Assembly: GCA_019351995.1 (NCBI GenBank)
Contig: JABBOD010000002.1
Span: 1-64,000, forward strand
Direction of reading: 5' to 3'
DNA: 64,000 nucleotides
DNA from: Acidobacteriota bacterium
GTDB taxonomy: Bacteria; Actinomycetota; Actinomycetes; Actinomycetales; Microbacteriaceae
Numbering within the stretch: position 1 is the first letter of the stretch; the number at the start of each line of letters is the position of its first letter. Below are positions 22,554 to 35,718 of the stretch, in pieces. The notes under the pieces were generated by a model. It ran no database searches, was not told the DNA's origin, and saw nothing but the letters and a program-made list of their open reading frames with translations. The translations under genes and the position numbers were made by a program.

Positions 22554-23668
22554 CCCCGGGTCAGCGGCTCGAGTGTGGGGTCTGTCGCATACGACTGCGC
22601 TGCGTTCTGACGCGTCACCAGCTGAGGCGTCAACAGAAACGTCGGCACGACCTTGGCTCCGTTGTTGTACGACGTGGTGTCGTTCACATCGACGCGCGAC
22701 CCCCTCTGCAGCTCGCTGACCATCTTGATCGCCTCTGCCACGAGCTTGCGGGTGTCCTTGTTGATCGTCGAGTACTGGATGCCTTGCATGATCAGGCGCA
22801 CCGAGGCGGCCTCCGAGTCCTGGCCCGTCACAATCGGGTACGGCTTGCCCGCCGTTTTCACCGACTGCAGGATCGCGCGGGCGAGCGTGTCATTGGGCGC
22901 GAGCACGCCATCCAGTTCGGTGCCGCTGTAGAAGCCGGCGAGAAGCGTGTCCATGCGGCTCTGCGCGTTCTGGGCAAGCCAGCCCTGTGTCGTCACCTGC
23001 TTGAACGCGGTCTGACCCGACACGACCTTCAGGGTGCCGTCATTGATTTTCGGCTGCAGCACCTTCATCGCTCCCTGGAAGAAGACGCTGGAGTTGTTGT
23101 CGTCCGGTGAACCGGCGAAGAGCTCGATGTTGTAGCTGGTCTTGTCGGGGTACTTCGCCTTCATGCCGGCCAGCAGGGCCTGGCCCTGGAGCTCGCCGAC
23201 GCGCTCGTTGTCGTACGCCACGTAATAGTCGACATTGCGGGTGTTCAGGATGAGACGGTCGTAGCTGATGACCATCGCTCCGGCCCTTTTGGCATCCGCC
23301 ACCTGCGTGGACAGCTGGCTCCCGTCCTTCGCCCCGATGATGATGACCTTCGCTCCTCGCGTGATCATCGCCTCGATCTCGTTCTGCTGCTCAGCCACCG
23401 TGTTGGTTGCCGGTGCGTATTGCACGTCGGGAGAGAACCCTGCCTTCGTCAAACCCTCGACGAAGAGCTGGCCGGCGATCGCGAAGTTCTCGCTCGTCTT
23501 ATCCGGCAACGCAACGCCGATGATCGCGTTGGCAGGGAACCCTCTCGTCGATCCGGATGCCGCCTCCTGCGCCCGGGAGGTGCAGCCGGTGAGGGCGACG
23601 ACCACCGAACAGACGGCGACGAGAGCCGCCACGCGTGTGGCGATGACGGTGCGTCGTGCGCGCATCAT
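22550..23668 (-). CDS. chvE: Sugar-binding lipoprotein of a multiple-monosaccharide ABC transporter (ChvE-like)
   Basis: This 372-residue protein begins with a basic stretch and a lipobox ending ALTGC (Cys about 28), so it is an exported lipoprotein. The mature part has the periplasmic-binding-protein fold with the ChvE-type features VYAPATNT-like [25 protein letters not shown] and the PNDTLARAI hinge segment. ChvE-class receptors bind xylose, glucose, arabinose and galactose; xylose is favoured here by the adjacent xylA-xylB. It is the last gene of a four-gene operon, with ATGA overlap to the permease gene. Confidence 0.9.
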
Positions 23669-24990
23669 GGGGTGGGGCCGTTCGGAACGGGCGCGGAGCT
23701 CGGAAGAGGTTCGTCTCCCGGCAGCCCTGCCGCGGTGGACCGGCGTTGGAATCGCCCGATGAGCGAGGGGCGGCCGCGGCGCTGACTGTAGACGTCGATC
23801 CCGACGGCGACCAGCAGAACGAGTCCCTTGATGATCTGGACGCGGTCAGAACTCACTCCCAGCAGGGCGAGACCGTTGTTGAGCACCGCGATCACCAGAC
23901 CGCCGATCACCGATCCGACGATCGTGCCGATCCCTCCCGAGACCGCGGCACCACCGATGAAGACCGCCGCGATCGCATCAAGCTCCCAGCCGATCCCATC
24001 ACCGGGCCCCGACGCGGCGGCACGCGCGACCCACATCTCTCCGGCGAAGGCAGCGATGATCGACATGTTCATCATCACGAAGAAGTTCGTACGACGGATG
24101 TTCACGCCCGACAACTCGGCGGCCCGCCAATTGCCCCCCACCGCGTAAATGTGCCTCCCGATCACCGTCCGGTTGGAGAGGAACGAATAGCCGAGCACCA
24201 GCGCCACGAGAATCACCCCCGAGATCGGAAAACTCGTGCCGATCGGGCCCTCGGCGAACAGGTACGTGCCTGCGCCGATCACCGCGACCAGGAGGGCGAC
24301 CCGCAGCACGTCGACCCAGAGCGGGAGTTCCTCGGCGCCACCACCACGAGCCCGGCGACGACGCCGAAGTGTGCGGATGATCACCGCGGCGATGGCGGCG
24401 AGCCCCAGCACCACCGTTGACAGGTTCAGTTGCACGCCCCACGCCGGGTCGGGCAGGTACCCGCTCCCGATGAAGGAGAAGGTGTCACCGGCGGGCAGGC
24501 TCACACTCGTGGAGTTGCCGACGAATTGATTCGCGCCACGGAAGATGAGCATTCCCGCGAGGGTGACGATGAACGCGGGCACGCCGACGTAGGCGACCCA
24601 GAAGCCCTGCCACGCGCCGACGACGGCGCCAACGCCCAACCCGAGCAGGAGGCCAAACAGCCAGGGCCAGTGCCAGTTGTCGATCGAGATCGCGACGATG
24701 ACGCCGACGAAGGCGGCGACCGAACCGACCGAGAGGTCGATGTGACCGGCGATGATCACCATCACCATGCCGATCGCGAGGATCAGCACATAGGCGTTCC
24801 CATTGACCAGGTTCAACAGGTTGATCGGGTCGAGCGTCTTACCGCCGGTGACGATCTGGAAGAAGATCACAATCGCCACGAGGGCACCGAGGATGCCGAA
24901 CTGGCGCCCCGAGCGCTGGCCGCCGAACAGGTGGCGCAGCTCCGCGAGCCGGGAGGGCGCAGTCCGTCGCATCGGAGCCTCGTCGGTCAT
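23665..24990 (-). CDS. gguB: Sugar ABC transporter permease (GguB-like)
   Basis: This 441-residue membrane protein of the ribose/xylose permease family (BPD_transp_2) has about ten hydrophobic segments, the motif [20 protein letters not shown] and the cytoplasmic-loop region [20 protein letters not shown] typical of XylH/GguB. It pairs with GguA and ChvE to import a pentose or hexose. Start ATG 24988-24990 overlaps the gguA stop, and its own stop overlaps the chvE start by 4 bp, indicating tight translational coupling. Confidence 0.92.
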
Positions 24991-26543
24991 CGGGTTGCCG
25001 CCTTCTTCTGAGTGGTGGTGATGCTGCGCATGAGCGTCTCCGGATCGGCGTGCGTGACGAGCAGGTTGTTCGTGATGCGGCCCTCGAAGATCGTGTAGAT
25101 GCGATCACAGACGCCGAGCAGTTCTGGCAACTCCGAGGAGATGAGCACGACGCCGCCGCCCTGAGCCGCCAGCCGCTGGATGATGCCGTAGATCTCGAAC
25201 TTCGCCCCCACGTCGATCCCGCGGGTCGGCTCGTCAAGGATCAGCAACTCCGGATCGGTGAACATCCACTTCGCCAGCACCACCTTCTGCTGATTGCCCC
25301 CCGACAGCTTGGAGACGCCCTCGTCGATCGTGGGGGTCTTGATCCGCAGACCCGCGCGGAATGACTCGGCCACCCGACGTTCCTCCCACTCGTCGACGCG
25401 GCCGCCGCGCGATATCTTCCGCAGCCGAGCCGAGACGATCGACTCTTTCACGTCATCCAGCAGATTGAGGCCCAGGTTGGTTCGGTCCTCGCTGACGTAG
25501 GCGATGCCGTGCGCGATTGCGTCGGCCACGCTGTTCAGCACGATCTCACGACCGTCCTTGAAGATCTGGCCGGAGACGTAACTCCCGTAGGAGCGTCCGA
25601 AAATGCTCATGGCCAACTCGGTGCGCCCCGCGCCCATGAGTCCCGCCAGCCCGACGATCTCGCCGCGGCGCACCTCGAAGCTCTCGCCTTTGCAGACCAG
25701 TCGCTCGGGGACGTGCGGATGCCGAACGGTCCAGTCCTTCACCTCGAAGAACACCTCCCCGATGCGCGGCTGCCGGTCGGGGAATCTGCTCTGCAGGCTG
25801 CGGCCGACCATGCCGCGGATGATGCGATCCTCGTCCACCTCCTGCGCCTGCACGCTGAGGGTCTCGATGGCCCGTCCGTCGCGCAGGATCGTGATCGAAT
25901 CCGCGATCTGTTCGATCTCGTTGAGCTTGTGGCTGATGATGATCGAGCTGACGCCCCTCCCCTTCAGCCCCAGAATCAGGCTGAGCAGGTGCTGCGAGTC
26001 GGTGCCGTTGAGCGTCGCGGTGGGCTCGTCCAGGATGAGCAGCTTGACGTCCTTGTGCAGGGCGCGCGCGATCTCCACCAGTTGCTGCTTGCCCACTCCG
26101 AGGTGTTTGATCTGGGTGTTCGGATCCTCTCGCAGACCGACGAGCTCGAGAAGGGACGTCGCCTGACGGTTCTGCTCCGACCAGTCGATGACCCCCCGCC
26201 GGGTGATCTCGCTGCCGAGAAAGATGTTCTCGGTGATCGAGAGCTCCGGGATGAGCGCGAACTCCTGGTGGATGGTGACGATCCCGACCGTCTCACTCGA
26301 CGCGACGCTCCGAAACCGCTGAAGCTTGCCGTGGAAGACGATGTCTCCGTCGTAGGAGCCGTATGGGTAGACCCCCGACAGGACTTTCATGAGGGTGGAC
26401 TTCCCGGCGCCGTTCTCGCCCGCAACCGCGTGGATCTGACCGGGGCCGACAGCGATCGACACCTCGGAGAGCGCGCGGACGCCGGGAAAGTCTTTGGAGA
26501 TCCGGCGCATCTCCAGGATGGGCGCCGCGGCGACGGTGGTCAT
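24987..26543 (-). CDS. gguA: Sugar ABC transporter ATP-binding protein, two NBDs (GguA/XylG-like)
   Basis: This 518-residue protein contains two tandem nucleotide-binding domains. The first has Walker [10 protein letters not shown] (about 43-51), signature [15 protein letters not shown] (a variant of LSVGQQQ) and Walker [10 protein letters not shown]. The second has a degenerate P-loop (GLMGAGRTE), the signature LSGGNQQKV and Walker [13 protein letters not shown]. This is the standard layout for monosaccharide importers such as XylG and GguA. ATG 26541-26543 overlaps the lacI stop by 4 bp. Confidence 0.93.
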
Positions 26544-27565
26544 GATCGGCCCCCTGGGGCACTCGTCGATGACCGCAGAATCAGCTGGGGTTGGATGGGA
26601 TCGGTGTGAAGCTTGCCCCCCTCCCCCAACTCCGCGAGCAGCAGATCGACGGAGCGGCGTCCGATTTCGGCGAAGTCCTGCCGGACGGTGGTCAAGGGCG
26701 GACTGTAGTGCGCGGCCTCCGGGATGTCATCGAAGCCGACGACGCTGACATCCCGCGGGACGTCGATACGGGCTTCCGCGAATGCATGCAACAGCCCGAG
26801 TGCCATGAGGTCATTGGAACAGAAGACGGCGGTGAAGTCCTCCCGCGCGATCAGTTCCTGCCCGGCTCGGTAGCCGAACTCTGCCGTCCAGTCGCCGAGC
26901 ACCGGCGGTCGAACGCTGAGTTCCGAGTCGGCGATCTCACGGAGATAGCCCTGCATGCGCGCCTCTGCCTCGATCCAGTCCTGAGGGCCGGCGAGGTGGA
27001 GGATGCGCCGATGCCCGAGCGCGATGAGGTGACGCGTGGCAAGTCTGGCTCCCTCGAACTGGTCGACCGAGATGCTGTGCGGCACGTCTCGGCGGTCGGG
27101 ATCGAGCAAGACATACGGCACCCGAAGCGGGGTCGACCTCAGCAGGTCGAAGACACGCGCCTGGGGAGCGACCACGGCAACGGCGCGCACCGACTGACCC
27201 TCCAGTTGGTCGAGCGCGTCACGCACCGATCGGTCGTCGCTGGCGGACGTGACGATGGCGAGGGTGTACCCGGCTTCGCGGGCCGCATCCTCGATCTCGT
27301 ACAGGATGGTCTGCGCCCCGTACGCCGCCGCGCGAGTGGCGACGAGCACACCGAGAACCTTGGACTTACTGGTGACCAGCGCACGGGCGGCCTGATTCGG
27401 GCGGTAGCCGAGCTGTTCGATGACCTCCATCACGCGCTGACGGGTCTCCGGACGCAACCGCGGCGAGTCGTTGAGGACCCGGGAGACCGTCTGGTAGGAG
27501 ACGCCGGCTTCGCGCGCCACATCACGGATGTTCGGCGCGCGCGTCGCGGTCGGCTCGGTGGTCAC
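26540..27565 (-). CDS. LacI-family transcriptional regulator of the sugar ABC operon
   Basis: This roughly 341-residue regulator has the N-terminal LacI helix-turn-helix [20 protein letters not shown] and the hinge segment [15 protein letters not shown], followed by a sugar-binding core ending in [20 protein letters not shown]. The start was set at GTG 27563-27565, which has a GGGAGG 4 nt upstream; a TTG at 27601 would add 12 residues. It is the first gene of the lacI-gguA-gguB-chvE operon. A perfect 8-bp-arm palindrome just upstream (27643-27669) suggests autoregulation. Confidence 0.92.
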
Positions 27566-27630
27566 GGGCCTCCCGACCTCGCTCGGTACCACACCAGGCA
27601 AAGCGGCTCTGCGTCGAGTGGCTGGAGACC

Positions 27631-27669
27631 ATTATGCACGGGATGTGACACCGTGCCGCATTGTCACAT
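27631..27669 (-). promoter_or_regulatory. Promoter and putative operator of the lacI-ggu-chvE operon
   Basis: On the minus strand a CATAAT -10-like box (complement of 27631-27636) precedes the gene by about 65 nt. Upstream of it lies the palindrome ATGTGACA-N11-TGTCACAT (27643-27669), covering the -35 region. The right arm overlaps the stop codon of the neighbouring cyclase gene. Binding by the encoded LacI protein is an inference; typical LacI-family sites have a shorter centre, so another regulator of CRP-like site architecture is possible. Confidence 0.5.
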
Positions 27670-28356
27670 GGTGGCGAACGCACGCACAGGGAACGTGCCG
27701 AACCCCTCGACCGCGGGAGGAGCCGCGGTGAAGCGCGCACCGCGGCTCGGCAGGAGCTCCAGGTTCGTCAGGTGCTCGACCACATGGATGCCAGCCGCGA
27801 GCAGTCCGCTGTGCGCCGGTCGTTCCCCGCCCGACTCGGTGTCGTCGATGTTGAGCGAATCGATTCCGACCAGTGCGACGCCCTGGCGGATCAGTTCGGC
27901 GACCCCGGCTGCTCCCAGGAAGGGCGCACCCCGCGCGTAGTCTGGCGTCCCGAAGAACCGACTCCAACCGGTGTCGAGAAGCACCGCCGATCCTTTGAGC
28001 TCCCGATCGTGGAATGCCGCGGCGGGAATCTCCCGGTCGGCGGAACCTCCCGGTACCACCTCCCGCAGGTGGAAGACCTGGGTCGGCAAGTCGACCAGCG
28101 TGGCGAGGTCAAGCCCCGCCAGATCGGCGCCGTTCTCGTAGCGATGGAAGGGACTGTCGAGATAGGTACCGGTGTTCCCGATCATGGTGATGACATCCAT
28201 GGCGAACTGGGTGCCCCGTGCGTACTTCGCGACCGACTGCTCGCGCGTGAGGTGCGGGGTGATCACCGGTGCAGGCAGGCCAGGGTAGGTGACCAAGCCG
28301 TCGCGGATGACCTGGCTGAGATCGACGACCCGCCGGGCGGGGAGTTCAGCGGGCAC
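27664..28356 (-). CDS. Cyclase-family (kynurenine formamidase-like) hydrolase with altered metal motif
   Basis: This 230-residue protein belongs to the cyclase family PF04199, which includes bacterial kynurenine formamidase and isatin hydrolase. Recognisable parts are LSQVIRDGLVTYPGLPAP near the start and the later AHSGLLAAGIHVVEHLTNL, which keeps the His and Glu of the active site. The family's metal-binding HxGTHxDxPxH reads N61-T-G-T-Y65-L-D67-S-P-F-H71: both early histidines are replaced. Activity and metal use may differ. Start GTG 28354-28356 has GGAGG about 10 nt upstream and overlaps the transporter gene by 11 bp, so both are in one operon. Confidence 0.85.
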   Translation of the reverse strand: MPAELPARRVVDLSQVIRDGLVTYPGLPAPVITPHLTREQSVAKYARGTQFAMDVITMIGNTGTYLDSPFHRYENGADLAGLDLATLVDLPTQVFHLREVVPGGSADREIPAAAFHDRELKGSAVLLDTGWSRFFGTPDYARGAPFLGAAGVAELIRQGVALVGIDSLNIDDTESGGERPAHSGLLAAGIHVVEHLTNLELLPSRGARFTAAPPAVEGFGTFPVRAFATM

Positions 28357-29650
28357 GGTGTCGGAACCTCCGAATCAGAGCCACCGCGAGGGCGACCAGC
28401 GTGAGCAGCGCGGGTACGACCAGGTGCCACCCGGCGAGAACGAGCAGCCCGGAAGTCAGGACCATCGAGATCACCGCCATGACCCAGCCGACACTGCCGA
28501 TGCGCAAGAGCTTGACCGCGGCGACCATGCCCAGCGCGTAGACCGCGACCAGCGAACTGGTCTGGATCAGGATGAACGTCTGCAGGTCGAGACGGAACAG
28601 GAAGTATGCCGTCGTATACACGAGCGCCAGCACCGCGAACAAGGCAAGGGCCCGCCGGGGCACGGCGCCCGCCTCCGCCCCGCGAGCGAACCACCGGGGC
28701 AGGTCGCCGTCGCGACCGAGGGAAGCACCCAGGTTCGCGAAGGCGGGGACGTAGGCGTTCTGCACGCCGATGACGACCACGGCTGCGATCACCGCGACCA
28801 CGATCGGGCCGAAACCCGGCAGCGTCACCGCCACCAGATCGATCAGCGGCACGGCGCTCGACGTGGCCGTCGCCCCCAGCACCCCGACAGTGGCGAACTG
28901 CAGCGCGAGGTAGGCGAGCCCGACCACGGCGACGGCGATCGCCGTGGCCAGCGGGATGGTGCGCCGCGGACTCCGGAACTCACCGGCGATGTGCGTCACC
29001 GCCTCCCACCCTGCGAATGCCCACACGAACAGGCTGATGGCTACCCCCACCCCGGCCCACCCGTGCGGAAGGAACGGGGTGAAGTGCGCGACCCGCGCGG
29101 AGGGCACCGAGCTCGCGACCACGCCCAAGACCACCACGACCAGCAGCGCTGAGAAGACGAGTTGCACCCGTCCGCTGACCCTCAGCCCGAATACGTTGAG
29201 AGCGAGCGGGACGAGCACGAAGGCGAACCCGATCGCCGGGACGAACGAGCGGTCGAGACCGAGGGCGGACACCAGGTACTCTCCGCCGAGAGTGGCGACG
29301 ACGGGGACGCCGAAACTGACTCCGAAGAAGAACCAGTAGCCGGCCGCGCGCGCCGCGGTCGCGCCGAAGGCGAGACGAACGAAGGTGGCGACGCCCCCGG
29401 CATCCGGATACCGCGCCGCGAGCGCTGCGAAGGTGCCCGCCAGCGGGATCGACAGCAGCAGTACCGCACCGACCGCGAGCACCGACGCCGGACCTGCCGC
29501 GTCGGCGGCAAGGCCGGGGAGCACGAGCACTCCACTGCCGAGCACGGCGGCAACGTAGAGTGCCGATGCGGTACCGAGCCCGATCCGACCGTGCGGAGCC
29601 GAGGCGGCATCCAGCTGCGGAGTCGACATCGAACTCTCGGTCACGGGCAT
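28346..29650 (-). CDS. APC-family amino acid/amine permease
   Basis: This 434-residue membrane protein has about 12 hydrophobic segments and the APC helix 1 pattern GLGTASALYVAAVLGSGVLV (glycine-rich unwound segment), similar to the YjeH-type exporter group. Substrate is not evident; co-transcription with a cyclase-family amidase-like hydrolase suggests an aromatic or amide compound. Start ATG 29648-29650 was preferred because GAGG lies 4 nt upstream; the longer frame runs into the palindromic regulatory region at 29656-29726. Confidence 0.85.
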   Translation of the reverse strand: MPVTESSMSTPQLDAASAPHGRIGLGTASALYVAAVLGSGVLVLPGLAADAAGPASVLAVGAVLLLSIPLAGTFAALAARYPDAGGVATFVRLAFGATAARAAGYWFFFGVSFGVPVVATLGGEYLVSALGLDRSFVPAIGFAFVLVPLALNVFGLRVSGRVQLVFSALLVVVVLGVVASSVPSARVAHFTPFLPHGWAGVGVAISLFVWAFAGWEAVTHIAGEFRSPRRTIPLATAIAVAVVGLAYLALQFATVGVLGATATSSAVPLIDLVAVTLPGFGPIVVAVIAAVVVIGVQNAYVPAFANLGASLGRDGDLPRWFARGAEAGAVPRRALALFAVLALVYTTAYFLFRLDLQTFILIQTSSLVAVYALGMVAAVKLLRIGSVGWVMAVISMVLTSGLLVLAGWHLVVPALLTLVALAVALIRRFRHRAR

Positions 29651-29655
29651 GTCCT

Positions 29656-29726
29656 CATCGTGGCAGTGGCAGGAACACGGCGTGAACCGCATTCCTGCCA
29701 CGACTCGTGGTTTTCACGCCACGATG
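29656..29726 (-). promoter_or_regulatory. Array of four GGC-NN-GAA half-sites upstream of the APC permease
   Basis: On the minus strand GGCGTGAA (29713-29720) and GGCAGGAA (29692-29699) occur in direct orientation, followed by their exact inverses TTCACGCC (29679-29686) and TTCCTGCC (29668-29675). The outermost bases CATCGTGGC/GCCACGATG are also perfectly complementary. This interleaved palindrome fills the space between the GT39 stop and the APC start and looks like a multi-site operator for an unidentified regulator. Confidence 0.6.
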
Positions 29727-33154: not shown

Positions 33155-34333
33155 CTAGACCCGCTCGAGCGCCTGCAGGACGTCGCCGAGCAGGTCGTCG
33201 ACGCCCTCGATGCCGACAGAAAGGCGCACGACGTTGTCCGGCACCTCCAGCGCGGTCCCACGCACCGAGGCGTGAGTCATCTCCGAGGGGTAGCACATCA
33301 GCGACTCGACACCGCCGAGAGACTCCGCCAGCTGGAACAGTTTGGTCCCCTCCGCGAAGGCCCGCGCCGCGGTCGCGTCGGCCAGCCGCAGCGAGATCAT
33401 GCCCCCGAACAACTTCATCTGCCGCGCCGCGAGCTCGTGGCCCGGGTGGTCAGGCAGCCCGGGATAGAAGACCGTCGAGACCTTCGGATGCCCGACGAGG
33501 GCCTCGGCGATGGTCTGCGCGTTCGAGGAGTGGCGGTCCATGCGCACCGCGAGGGTCTTGATGCCCCGGATGGTGAGCCAGGCATCCAGGGGGCTGGACA
33601 CCGCGCCGACGCCGAACTGCAGGAAGGCGACCTTCTCGGCCAGACTCTCGTCGCCGACCATCACGTCGTTGTTCAGGATCACCGCCCCGCCGAGCACATC
33701 GCTGTGGCCGCCGAGGTACTTCGTCGTCGAGTGGGTCACCACGTCGGCGCCGAGCGAGAGCGGCTGCTGCAGGTACGGCGAGGCGAAGGTGTTGTCCACC
33801 ACGACCACGGCGCCGGCGGCATGAGCGATTTCGCTGATCGCGGCGATGTCGGTGATCTTCATCAGCGGGTTGCTCGGAGTCTCGAGCCAGACCACCTTCG
33901 TGGTCGGGCGGATCGCCGCGCGAACGGCGTCGGCGTCCATCATCTCGACCGTTGAGAGCTCGATGCCCCACGGCACATGCGCCCGATTCACCAGCCGGTG
34001 TGTGCCGCCGTAGACGTCATTGCCCATCAGCACATGGTCACCGGGCTTCAGGATGGAGCGCAGCAGCGTGTCCTCGCCGGCGAGCCCCGACGCGAAGCTG
34101 AACGCCCGGTCTCCACCCTCGAGTGCTGACAGCAGGGTCTGCAGCGAATCCCGGGTGGGGTTGCCACCGCGTGCGTACTCGTAGCCGCCCCGGAAACCGC
34201 CGAGGCCGTCCTGCACGAAGGTGGTCGTGAAGTAGACGGGCGGGATCACGGCTCCCGTCGTCGGGTCGAAGTCCTGTCCGGCGTGGATGGCGGTGGTTCG
34301 GAAATCGGGCGTGATGCTGTCTGGCTGCGTCAT
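33155..34333 (-). CDS. metB: Cystathionine gamma-synthase / trans-sulfuration PLP enzyme
   Basis: This 392-residue PLP enzyme has the opening TTAIHAGQDFDPTTGAV, the YARGGNPTRDSLQ phosphate-site motif and the Schiff-base lysine in HSTTKYLGGHSDV. It forms cystathionine from an O-acylhomoserine and cysteine, or, as cystathionine gamma-lyase, cleaves it; sequence alone does not settle which, and the adjacent cystathionine beta-synthase suggests reverse trans-sulfuration. It starts 21 bp after the cbs stop in the same operon. Confidence 0.88.
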   Translation of the reverse strand: MTQPDSITPDFRTTAIHAGQDFDPTTGAVIPPVYFTTTFVQDGLGGFRGGYEYARGGNPTRDSLQTLLSALEGGDRAFSFASGLAGEDTLLRSILKPGDHVLMGNDVYGGTHRLVNRAHVPWGIELSTVEMMDADAVRAAIRPTTKVVWLETPSNPLMKITDIAAISEIAHAAGAVVVVDNTFASPYLQQPLSLGADVVTHSTTKYLGGHSDVLGGAVILNNDVMVGDESLAEKVAFLQFGVGAVSSPLDAWLTIRGIKTLAVRMDRHSSNAQTIAEALVGHPKVSTVFYPGLPDHPGHELAARQMKLFGGMISLRLADATAARAFAEGTKLFQLAESLGGVESLMCYPSEMTHASVRGTALEVPDNVVRLSVGIEGVDDLLGDVLQALERV

Positions 34334-34353: not shown

Positions 34354-35718
34354 CTAACTGTTGAGGAAGGTGAGCAGGTCGTGCCGGGTGAGCACGGCGG
34401 CAGGCTTGCCGTCGGTCGTGACCATGAGCGCGTCCGCGTCGCGCAACTGGAGGCGAGCCGACTCGACCGTCTCGTGCATCCCGATCAAGGCAAAGCGGGG
34501 CGCGATCAATCCCGCGACAGGGTCGGTGAGCGCAACACGGCCGCTGAAGACGGCATCCACGAGTGTCCTCTCGTCGATCGAGCCGACCACCTCACCCATC
34601 ACAACGGGCGGTTCCGCGCTCAGCACCGGCACCTGCGAGACGTCGTATTCCTTGAAGATGCCGATCACATCGCGCACGGTGTCGCTCGGGTGGGCATGGA
34701 CGAACTCGGGAAGCGTTCCGTTCTTCGTGCTGACGATGTCCCCGACCGTCTTGCCCTCGTCAGCGGGGAGGAAACCGTAGCTGCGCATCCAGCCGTCGTT
34801 GAAGATCTTGCCCAGGTAGCCGCGCCCCCCGTCGGGCAACAGGATCACCATGACGTCGTCGGGGCCGAGCCGGCGAGCAACCTTGAGCGCGGATGCCACG
34901 GCCATGCCGCTGGAGCCACCGACCAACAGGCCCTCCTCGCGAGCGAGACGCCGGGTCAGCTCGAACGATTCCGCGTCGGATGCTGCCACGATTTCGTCGA
35001 CGACGCTCGGGTCGTACGCGGTCGGCCAGAAGTCTTCACCGACTCCTTCGACCAGATACGGTCGGCCGGTGCCGCCCGAGTAGACGGATCCCTCGGGGTC
35101 AGAGCCGATGATCCGCACCCGACCGTTGCTGACCTCCTTGAGGTACCTACCAACACCACTGATCGTGCCGCCGGTGCCGACGCCCGCGACGAAGTGGGTG
35201 ATCTCGCCGCCCGTCTGCTCCCAGATCTCGGGACCGGTGGTCTCGTAATGGCTCAGCGGCCCGTTGGGGTTCGAGTACTGATCGGGCTTGAAGGCGCCCG
35301 GGATCTCGCGCGCCAGACGGTCGCTCACCGAGTAGTAGCTCTCGGGGCTGCTGGGCTCGACGGCGGTCGGGCACACCACGACCTCCGCGCCGTAGGCCAT
35401 GAGCGTATTCCTCTTGTCTTCGCTGACCTTGTCGGGGCAGACGAACACGCAGCGGTACCCGCGCTGCTGGGCGACCAGGGCGAGACCGATCCCGGTGTTG
35501 CCGCTCGTGGGTTCCACGATCGTGCCGCCCGGCTTCAGCTTGCCCTCCCGCTCGGCCGCGTCGATGATGCGCACGGCGATGCGGTCCTTGGAGGAGCCGC
35601 CCGGGTTGAGGTACTCGATCTTGGCGAGCACCGTCGCCTGGATACCCTCGGTGACCTTGTTCAGCCGGACCAGCGGGGTGTTGCCGATCAGATCGAGCAC
35701 GGTCTCGGCATAATCCAT
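34354..35718 (-). CDS. cbs: Cystathionine beta-synthase with C-terminal CBS domains
   Basis: This 454-residue protein begins DLIGNTPLVRLNKVTEG and has the PLP lysine in NPGGSSKDR, the TSGNTGIGLALVAQQRGY loop and a glycine-rich VAGVGTGGTISGVGRYLKE phosphate site. Residues about 330-450 form a CBS-domain pair for regulation. It condenses serine (or O-acetylserine) with homocysteine. Start ATG 35716-35718 follows a TAGGCT -10 box (35725-35730) by 6 nt, indicating a leaderless operon cbs-metB. Confidence 0.93.
   Translation of the reverse strand: MDYAETVLDLIGNTPLVRLNKVTEGIQATVLAKIEYLNPGGSSKDRIAVRIIDAAEREGKLKPGGTIVEPTSGNTGIGLALVAQQRGYRCVFVCPDKVSEDKRNTLMAYGAEVVVCPTAVEPSSPESYYSVSDRLAREIPGAFKPDQYSNPNGPLSHYETTGPEIWEQTGGEITHFVAGVGTGGTISGVGRYLKEVSNGRVRIIGSDPEGSVYSGGTGRPYLVEGVGEDFWPTAYDPSVVDEIVAASDAESFELTRRLAREEGLLVGGSSGMAVASALKVARRLGPDDVMVILLPDGGRGYLGKIFNDGWMRSYGFLPADEGKTVGDIVSTKNGTLPEFVHAHPSDTVRDVIGIFKEYDVSQVPVLSAEPPVVMGEVVGSIDERTLVDAVFSGRVALTDPVAGLIAPRFALIGMHETVESARLQLRDADALMVTTDGKPAAVLTRHDLLTFLNS

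Follow-up and report, generated by a model that had tools for sequence, protein, structure and literature searches.

A branch of the PF04199 cyclase fold with Asn and Tyr at the first metal site and an arginine in the pocket points to changed handling of an amino-acid-like molecule

An open reading frame of the cyclase fold lies at 27664..28356 on the minus strand of the window, the whole stretch of 64,000 nucleotides that was analysed. It starts with GTG, encodes 230 amino acids, and is intact. The protein matched PF04199 (Cyclase) with an E-value of 2.9e-18 and a score of 66.9 bits (cut-off 23.1), over positions 1-141 of the 142 in the profile. The AF2 model of the protein had a pLDDT of 88.8 and a pTM of 0.87, and the fold matches by VIA-align were 8f9x (Z 25.4), isatin hydrolase 4j0n (25.0), and KynB 4co9 (24.1). 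The motif N61-TGT-Y65-L-D67-SPF-H71 (NTGTYLDSPFH), which had been read in this form in the initial annotation and was found exactly so in the translation, departs from the classical HxG[T/A]HxDxPxH of PF04199. Along the minus strand, the gene order is cystathionine beta-synthase (CBS), a cystathionine gamma-synthase (CGS) type PLP enzyme, two glycosyltransferase-like genes (named by eye), an APC-family amino acid permease, the cyclase, a LacI regulator, and a sugar ABC transporter. The CBS gene (34354..35718, minus strand) scored 622.6 bits with TIGR01137 (cut-off 510.25), and the CGS-type gene (33155..34333, minus strand) scored 626.8 bits with PRK07811 (cut-off 513). The permease gene (28346..29701, minus strand) runs 11 bases into the start of the cyclase gene and matched PF13520 with an E-value of 4.1e-32; its best NCBIfam match, PRK11021, gave 184.8 bits, under the cut-off of 284. 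An amino-acid-type permease had been proposed as the partner of the cyclase, and the adjacent gene is indeed of this type; several related genera also keep it upstream of the cyclase. Directly after the cyclase, the LacI regulator and a GguA/GguB-type monosaccharide ABC transporter occupy positions 23665-27601.

In the excerpted account of KynB (PMC4243253), the ligands of the first zinc are His50, His54, and Asp56 and those of the second are Asp56, His161, and Glu173; His60 is the proposed base, and Leu158 lines the substrate cavity. According to the printed alignment to 4co9, both site-1 histidines are replaced in the window protein, His50 by Asn61 (codon at 28174..28176, minus strand, like all codons given here) and His54 by Tyr65 (28162..28164). 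Asp67 (28156..28158), the counterpart of the Asp56 that binds both zincs, is kept, as are His71 (28144..28146) at the place of His60 and the site-2 ligands His182 (27811..27813) and Glu194 (27775..27777) at the places of His161 and Glu173. On the pocket wall, Arg179 (27820..27822) stands at the place of Leu158. Further counterparts in the same alignment are N169 for Ser149, D171 for Asp151, and Y24 for Trp20. Read against the zinc ligands of KynB, the alignment indicates that the window protein lost the histidines of site 1 and kept site 2, which is complete, together with the base. The retention of the later His and Glu had been noted before and agrees with the KynB ligands. The claimed loss of two metal-binding histidines holds for both positions, but it is confined to site 1, and the ligands of the second zinc are intact. 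With the KynB equivalog model TIGR03035, the window protein scored 40.8 bits against a cut-off of 223.05; identity with KynB was ruled out by this score and by the ligand replacements.

The altered motif is shared by the relatives of the window protein. We took as close relatives the best 80 of 182 contig stretches encoding a relative, and N..TGTY was present in the window protein and in all 80. Among these 81 aligned sequences, N61, G63, T64, Y65, H71, H182, and E194 were invariant, and D67 was found in 80, with Asn in L051. A wider set numbered 191 rows, some of them repeats (the window appears two times and L185 in two pieces). Tyr65 stands in 133 of these rows and His65 in 57, and the remaining row is an incomplete piece. 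In 18 of the 191 rows (L161, L156, L157, L160, and others), Gln stands for the first motif His (GSQTGTH) and the second His is kept. A tree was computed for 121 rows by a quick method without bootstrap, with the ligand columns left out, 67 of the 80 close relatives thinned, and L185, whose gene lies in two frames, dropped; warnings of long branches and of odd composition were given by the program. On this tree, a single change accounts for Tyr65, and the rows with Tyr, 64 in number, make up one side of a branch with an SH-aLRT of 99. The NTGTY homologues, for which a clade check had been suggested, thus fall into a single clade. We named it the GTY clade and defined it by Tyr65, Arg179, and the single branch. 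The window protein has both residues and lies on this branch, and carries Gln at the place of His15. Chance or an isolated mutation as the source of the motif was ruled out by the single clade and by Tyr65 in 64/64 rows inside against 0/57 outside.

GTY members were common in Actinomycetota and were also found in Chloroflexota (Herpetosiphon) and Ensifer. Residue 61 is Ile in Enterobacter and Ser in Pararhizobium and haloarchaea. Within the window's own family, the matches listed included one above 60% identity for about a third of 150 sampled genomes. No homologue matched in the phage records. In the plasmid records examined, GTY genes were named 'cyclase family protein' or were absent from the gene table. 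On an Ensifer adhaerens plasmid (L185), an N-terminal domain and a GTY cyclase are split into two frames that are absent from the PLSDB gene table, and hydantoinase and aspartate dehydrogenase genes lie in the surroundings.

Arg179 and His15 are conserved together with Tyr65. In the tree set, Arg179 was present in 63/64 clade rows against 0/57 outside, where Phe, Leu, Trp, or Tyr mostly occupies the position, and His15 in 63/64 against 12/57. A larger clade set of 132 rows was made by dropping rows shorter than 200 amino acids; one of its rows is an exact duplicate, and the L185 row still has the out-of-frame tail. In this set, Y65, H71, Y140, D166, D171, and R225 were found in all 132 rows, and D67, H182, and E194 in 126 each. 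Arg179 was found in 130 and is therefore not absolute, being Val in L186 and Trp in L047. His15 was found in 131, and the window protein, with Gln15 (codon at 28312..28314), is the sole exception. Since the new arginine accompanies the loss of the metal site and stands where Leu158 lines the cavity of KynB, we suggest that Arg179 and Tyr65 may now hold a carboxylate or some other anion.

A nested group within the clade has gone further. In a class-wide search of 345 genomes, it was found in at least nine genomes, all with the genus code g237 (L150-L154 and L193-L196, the latter four taken as sequences without flanks). His182 and Glu194 are replaced in all nine and Asp67 by Glu in eight, and residue 61 is Ala or Thr; Tyr65, His71, and Arg179 are kept. 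The tree included five of the nine, and these grouped together (SH-aLRT 100) inside the NTGTY members that share their family code. The mean pN/pS by Nei-Gojobori proportions was 0.384 for the nine nested-group genes and 0.382 for seven NTGTY relatives, and with such similar values these genes do not look like decaying genes. Of the five loci that were read with flanks, four (L151-L154) have two neighbour genes common to the NTGTY relatives. To judge from its residues, the nested group could hardly hold a metal in the manner of the family.

Many GTY cyclases carry a fused N-terminal domain of about 70 amino acids. It was found by profile in 61 of the closest relatives (58 by a stricter pattern), again the best 80 of 182, and in 76 of 144 GTY frames overall, a number that includes repeats (the window three times, and L197-L199, which repeat earlier loci). 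The domain follows the pattern YRAHFDxxIxFANGGxLxxxGFRLDLPS...HLGLALV...IVEExHRGSRG and lies at 5761-5970 in L002, the sister of the window gene; in L002 numbering, R3, A4, F12, N14, G16, F23, R24, D26, H44-L47, V50, E63, H65, G67, and R69 are invariant. The domain is also present in the Ensifer frame. No Pfam or NCBIfam match covered it when whole L002 was searched, no Pfam match covered it in L185, and the PDB sequence search gave no convincing match, the best having an E-value of 0.083. Its model shows a beta-beta-alpha-beta unit with a pLDDT of about 92, and the fold search with the domain-bearing protein returned a list filled by matches to the cyclase part. A domain search in 296 genomes across the phylum gave seven matches: three fused members of the window's family, three outside its class that precede NTGTY cyclases, and L203, a match (E 6.5e-4) in a frame without a cyclase that looks spurious. 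In the loci examined, the domain did not occur as a separate gene, and the sole hit outside a GTY frame was weak (L024, E 0.007). The query that found the domain in other genomes found none in the window or elsewhere in the window genome.

The neighbouring genes of the clade fall into two recurrent arrangements. In related genera, the CBS and CGS genes are retained upstream of the cyclase. In 24 loci, one or more of CBS, CGS, and permease, with an identity of at least 50% and in the same orientation, precede the cyclase (CBS in 14, CGS in 18, and permease in 16), a count in which the short locus of the window enters twice, for the permease only. GguA was about 70% identical near the cyclase in several relatives and was counted in 27 loci, mostly below 40% identity. 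The other arrangement has a GNAT gene up to about 1.5 kb upstream and an NSAR/OSBS-type gene 0.2 to 1.9 kb downstream; the two genes share the strand of the cyclase and occur in the same 18 of 190 loci, although many of the 190 are too short to show neighbours and the codon-position gene call missed the target gene in 21 of them and left gene ends rough. Where named, these 18 loci are from Microbacterium. The GNAT gene is presumably COG3375, and a GNAT-racemase-hydrolase pathway is known for D-amino acids. The NSAR/OSBS-type gene of L011 scored 305 bits with TIGR01928 (cut-off 200.65). N-acylamino acid racemases accept N-acetyl-methionine, according to the excerpted text of PMC8142540. A search of the window genome for the GNAT gene found no match, and the search for the racemase-type gene found no close one, just a distant enolase-family match. 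In eight mycobacterial loci, including L034, an amidohydrolase-family gene lies nearby. Two GTY cyclases (L183 and L184) are located in biosynthetic-looking clusters of two Streptomyces plasmids, together with genes for TauD dioxygenases, a carbamoyltransferase, a condensation domain, and an argininosuccinate synthase domain. What the neighbours share is a link to amino acids, which perhaps contain sulphur or are N-acylated, and no single substrate follows from it. We considered homocysteine thiolactone as a candidate on the basis of the CBS and CGS neighbours.

On these grounds, we regard the GTY clade as a subfamily of the PF04199 fold, of single origin and with a remodelled active site, whose members would be hydrolase-like enzymes that act on a carboxylate-bearing amino-acid-type substrate with at most one metal. 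Drawn from sequence, this explanation as a whole has in our judgement a probability a little above even. In the proposed mechanism, the site-1 histidines would have been replaced by Asn61 and Tyr65, and Arg179 would have entered the substrate pocket at the place of the KynB leucine, so that the substrate carboxylate would be bound by Arg179 and Tyr65 in place of metal 1. His71 would activate water in the way put forward for KynB, with the help, in most members, of a single metal left at site 2 (Asp67, His182, and Glu194). The substrate would be an N-acyl amino acid, or a lactone/thiolactone or cyclic amide of an amino acid. The two neighbourhoods on which the substrate class draws are bound to lineages and may reflect nothing more than chromosome order; they indicate different pathways, and further loci have neither of them.

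The window copy differs from its sister in ways that allow another reading, namely that it is a decaying gene whose own deviations say nothing about catalysis. The window gene is without the N-terminal domain that L002 has, because the permease gene runs over the cyclase start, and its Gln15 is unique among the 132 rows; in the family loci L204 to L231, His15 was present in 28 of 28 (25 by pattern and three read separately). Of two further genomes with the same genus code, G680 has an 83% identical protein with the N-terminal domain and is probably the same assembly as L002, and G741 has only gene fragments, on two contig ends, one of them without an inner stretch. A family member with an interrupted cyclase frame was seen in G655 (L236). 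However, Gln15 is a one-base difference in a draft assembly, the position of the G741 fragments at contig ends may reflect an assembly fault, the frame of the window gene is intact, and the comparison with L002 gave a pN of 0.10 at a pS of 0.55, which indicates that the gene is still constrained. Moreover, NTGTY is common to the whole clade. We consider decay of the window copy unlikely, although the lack of the domain and of His15 may mean that this copy has an altered or failing function.

For the clade as a whole, the question is how much of the metal chemistry is left. The members could be ordinary family hydrolases that bind a metal, probably Mn or Zn, through Tyr65 and Asn61, or through Asp67, His182, and Glu194 alone, and carry out the usual hydrolysis of an amide, ester, or lactone. 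MGS0169 offers a precedent, because in the excerpted report (PMC5341072) both histidines are Gln and the enzyme is nevertheless stimulated by Mn and sensitive to alanine at Gln127, Gln131, and Asp133; by analogy, metal binding may be normal here too. The retention of each site-2 ligand in 126 of 132 rows is consistent with this, but the nested group has given up these ligands with its pN/pS unchanged and with Tyr65, His71, and Arg179 in place, and we find an ordinary metal hydrolase possible but rather unlikely. The same group lends itself to the opposite reading, in which the enzymes are metal-free and Tyr65, His71, His15, and Arg179 form an acid/base site, or a site for binding only, with the metal ligands as relics and a non-hydrolytic reaction such as elimination, dehydration, or isomerisation. 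Complete conservation of Tyr65 and His71 against the less complete conservation of Asp67, His182, and Glu194 would fit such a site, as would the unrelaxed pN/pS of the nested group and the two neighbours shared by L151-L154. All three site-2 ligands are present in most members, however, which would be odd for relics, and the nested group may have changed function independently. A metal-free, non-hydrolytic clade thus appears improbable. A tentative and in our view doubtful extension is that the two-metal fold turned into a site of Tyr65, His71, His15, and Arg179 by losing metal 1 first and metal 2 in one branch.

The reading that we prefer, a remodelled hydrolase-like enzyme with at most one metal, points to changed handling of an amino-acid-like molecule, because Asn and Tyr took the place of the site-1 histidines and the substrate pocket gained an arginine. 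The GTY branch is widespread and, as far as found, unstudied: a literature search, including the excerpts of PMC4243253, PMC6117287, PMC5341072, PMC6214936, and PMC8142540, gave no study of an NTGTY member and no characterised member of the clade. The 'polyketide cyclase' of pAO1 in the excerpted PMC6214936 may or may not be a GTY member. The substrate of one GTY member would provide a substrate for a large set of genes without assignment. NTGTY and ATGTYVE members together bear on whether a metal-dependent fold became metal-poor or metal-free in steps, and if the stepwise loss were true, the clade would show the change from a metalloenzyme to a metal-free enzyme across living relatives.

Among the known systems, 8f9x, a 'Cyclase-Phosphotriesterase' of Ruegeria pomeroyi, was the best fold match (Z 25.4, 24% identity), but it has an ordinary HTGTHVDAP motif. 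PDB 5ibz ('novel cyclase'), which we take to be MGS0169, is a larger protein with a Z of only 19.4. The structures of KynB (4co9, 4cog, and 4cob) share the fold (Z 24.1, 23.7, and 23.5), and the counterparts of Asp56, His60, His161, and Glu173 are kept in the window protein, whereas His50 is changed to Asn, His54 to Tyr, Leu158 to Arg, and Ser149 to Asn. Isatin hydrolase (4j0n, 5nna, and 5nmp; Z 24.7 to 25.0) has the same fold, and in the excerpted descriptions one metal suffices, the site-1 metal (His69, His73, and Asp75) being retained. Isatin hydrolase thus keeps site 1 and has Gln/Ala at the place of the KynB Glu, whereas the window protein lost site 1 and kept the Glu; the classical motif is absent from it, and VVE stands where I(L/I)E of KynB and GLQC/GLAS sit. 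MGS0169, a Mn-stimulated esterase with Gln127/Gln131/Asp133/His137 in the excerpted PMC5341072, resembles the window protein in that both early histidines are replaced and the motif Asp and His and the later His and Glu are kept. In the same source, trans-dienelactone hydrolase likewise has Gln..Gln in place of both histidines. Both differ from the window protein, which has N61 and Y65 in place of Gln and so departs from the QxxxQxDxxxH motif of the MGS0169 type. The histidine loss, the clade, and the permease of the initial annotation therefore stand, but the loss of both histidines is by itself not new in the family, Gln/Gln being the precedent. The combination of NTGTY with Arg179, an almost ligand-free sister group, and an extra domain did not appear in the literature searched and seen in listings and excerpts.
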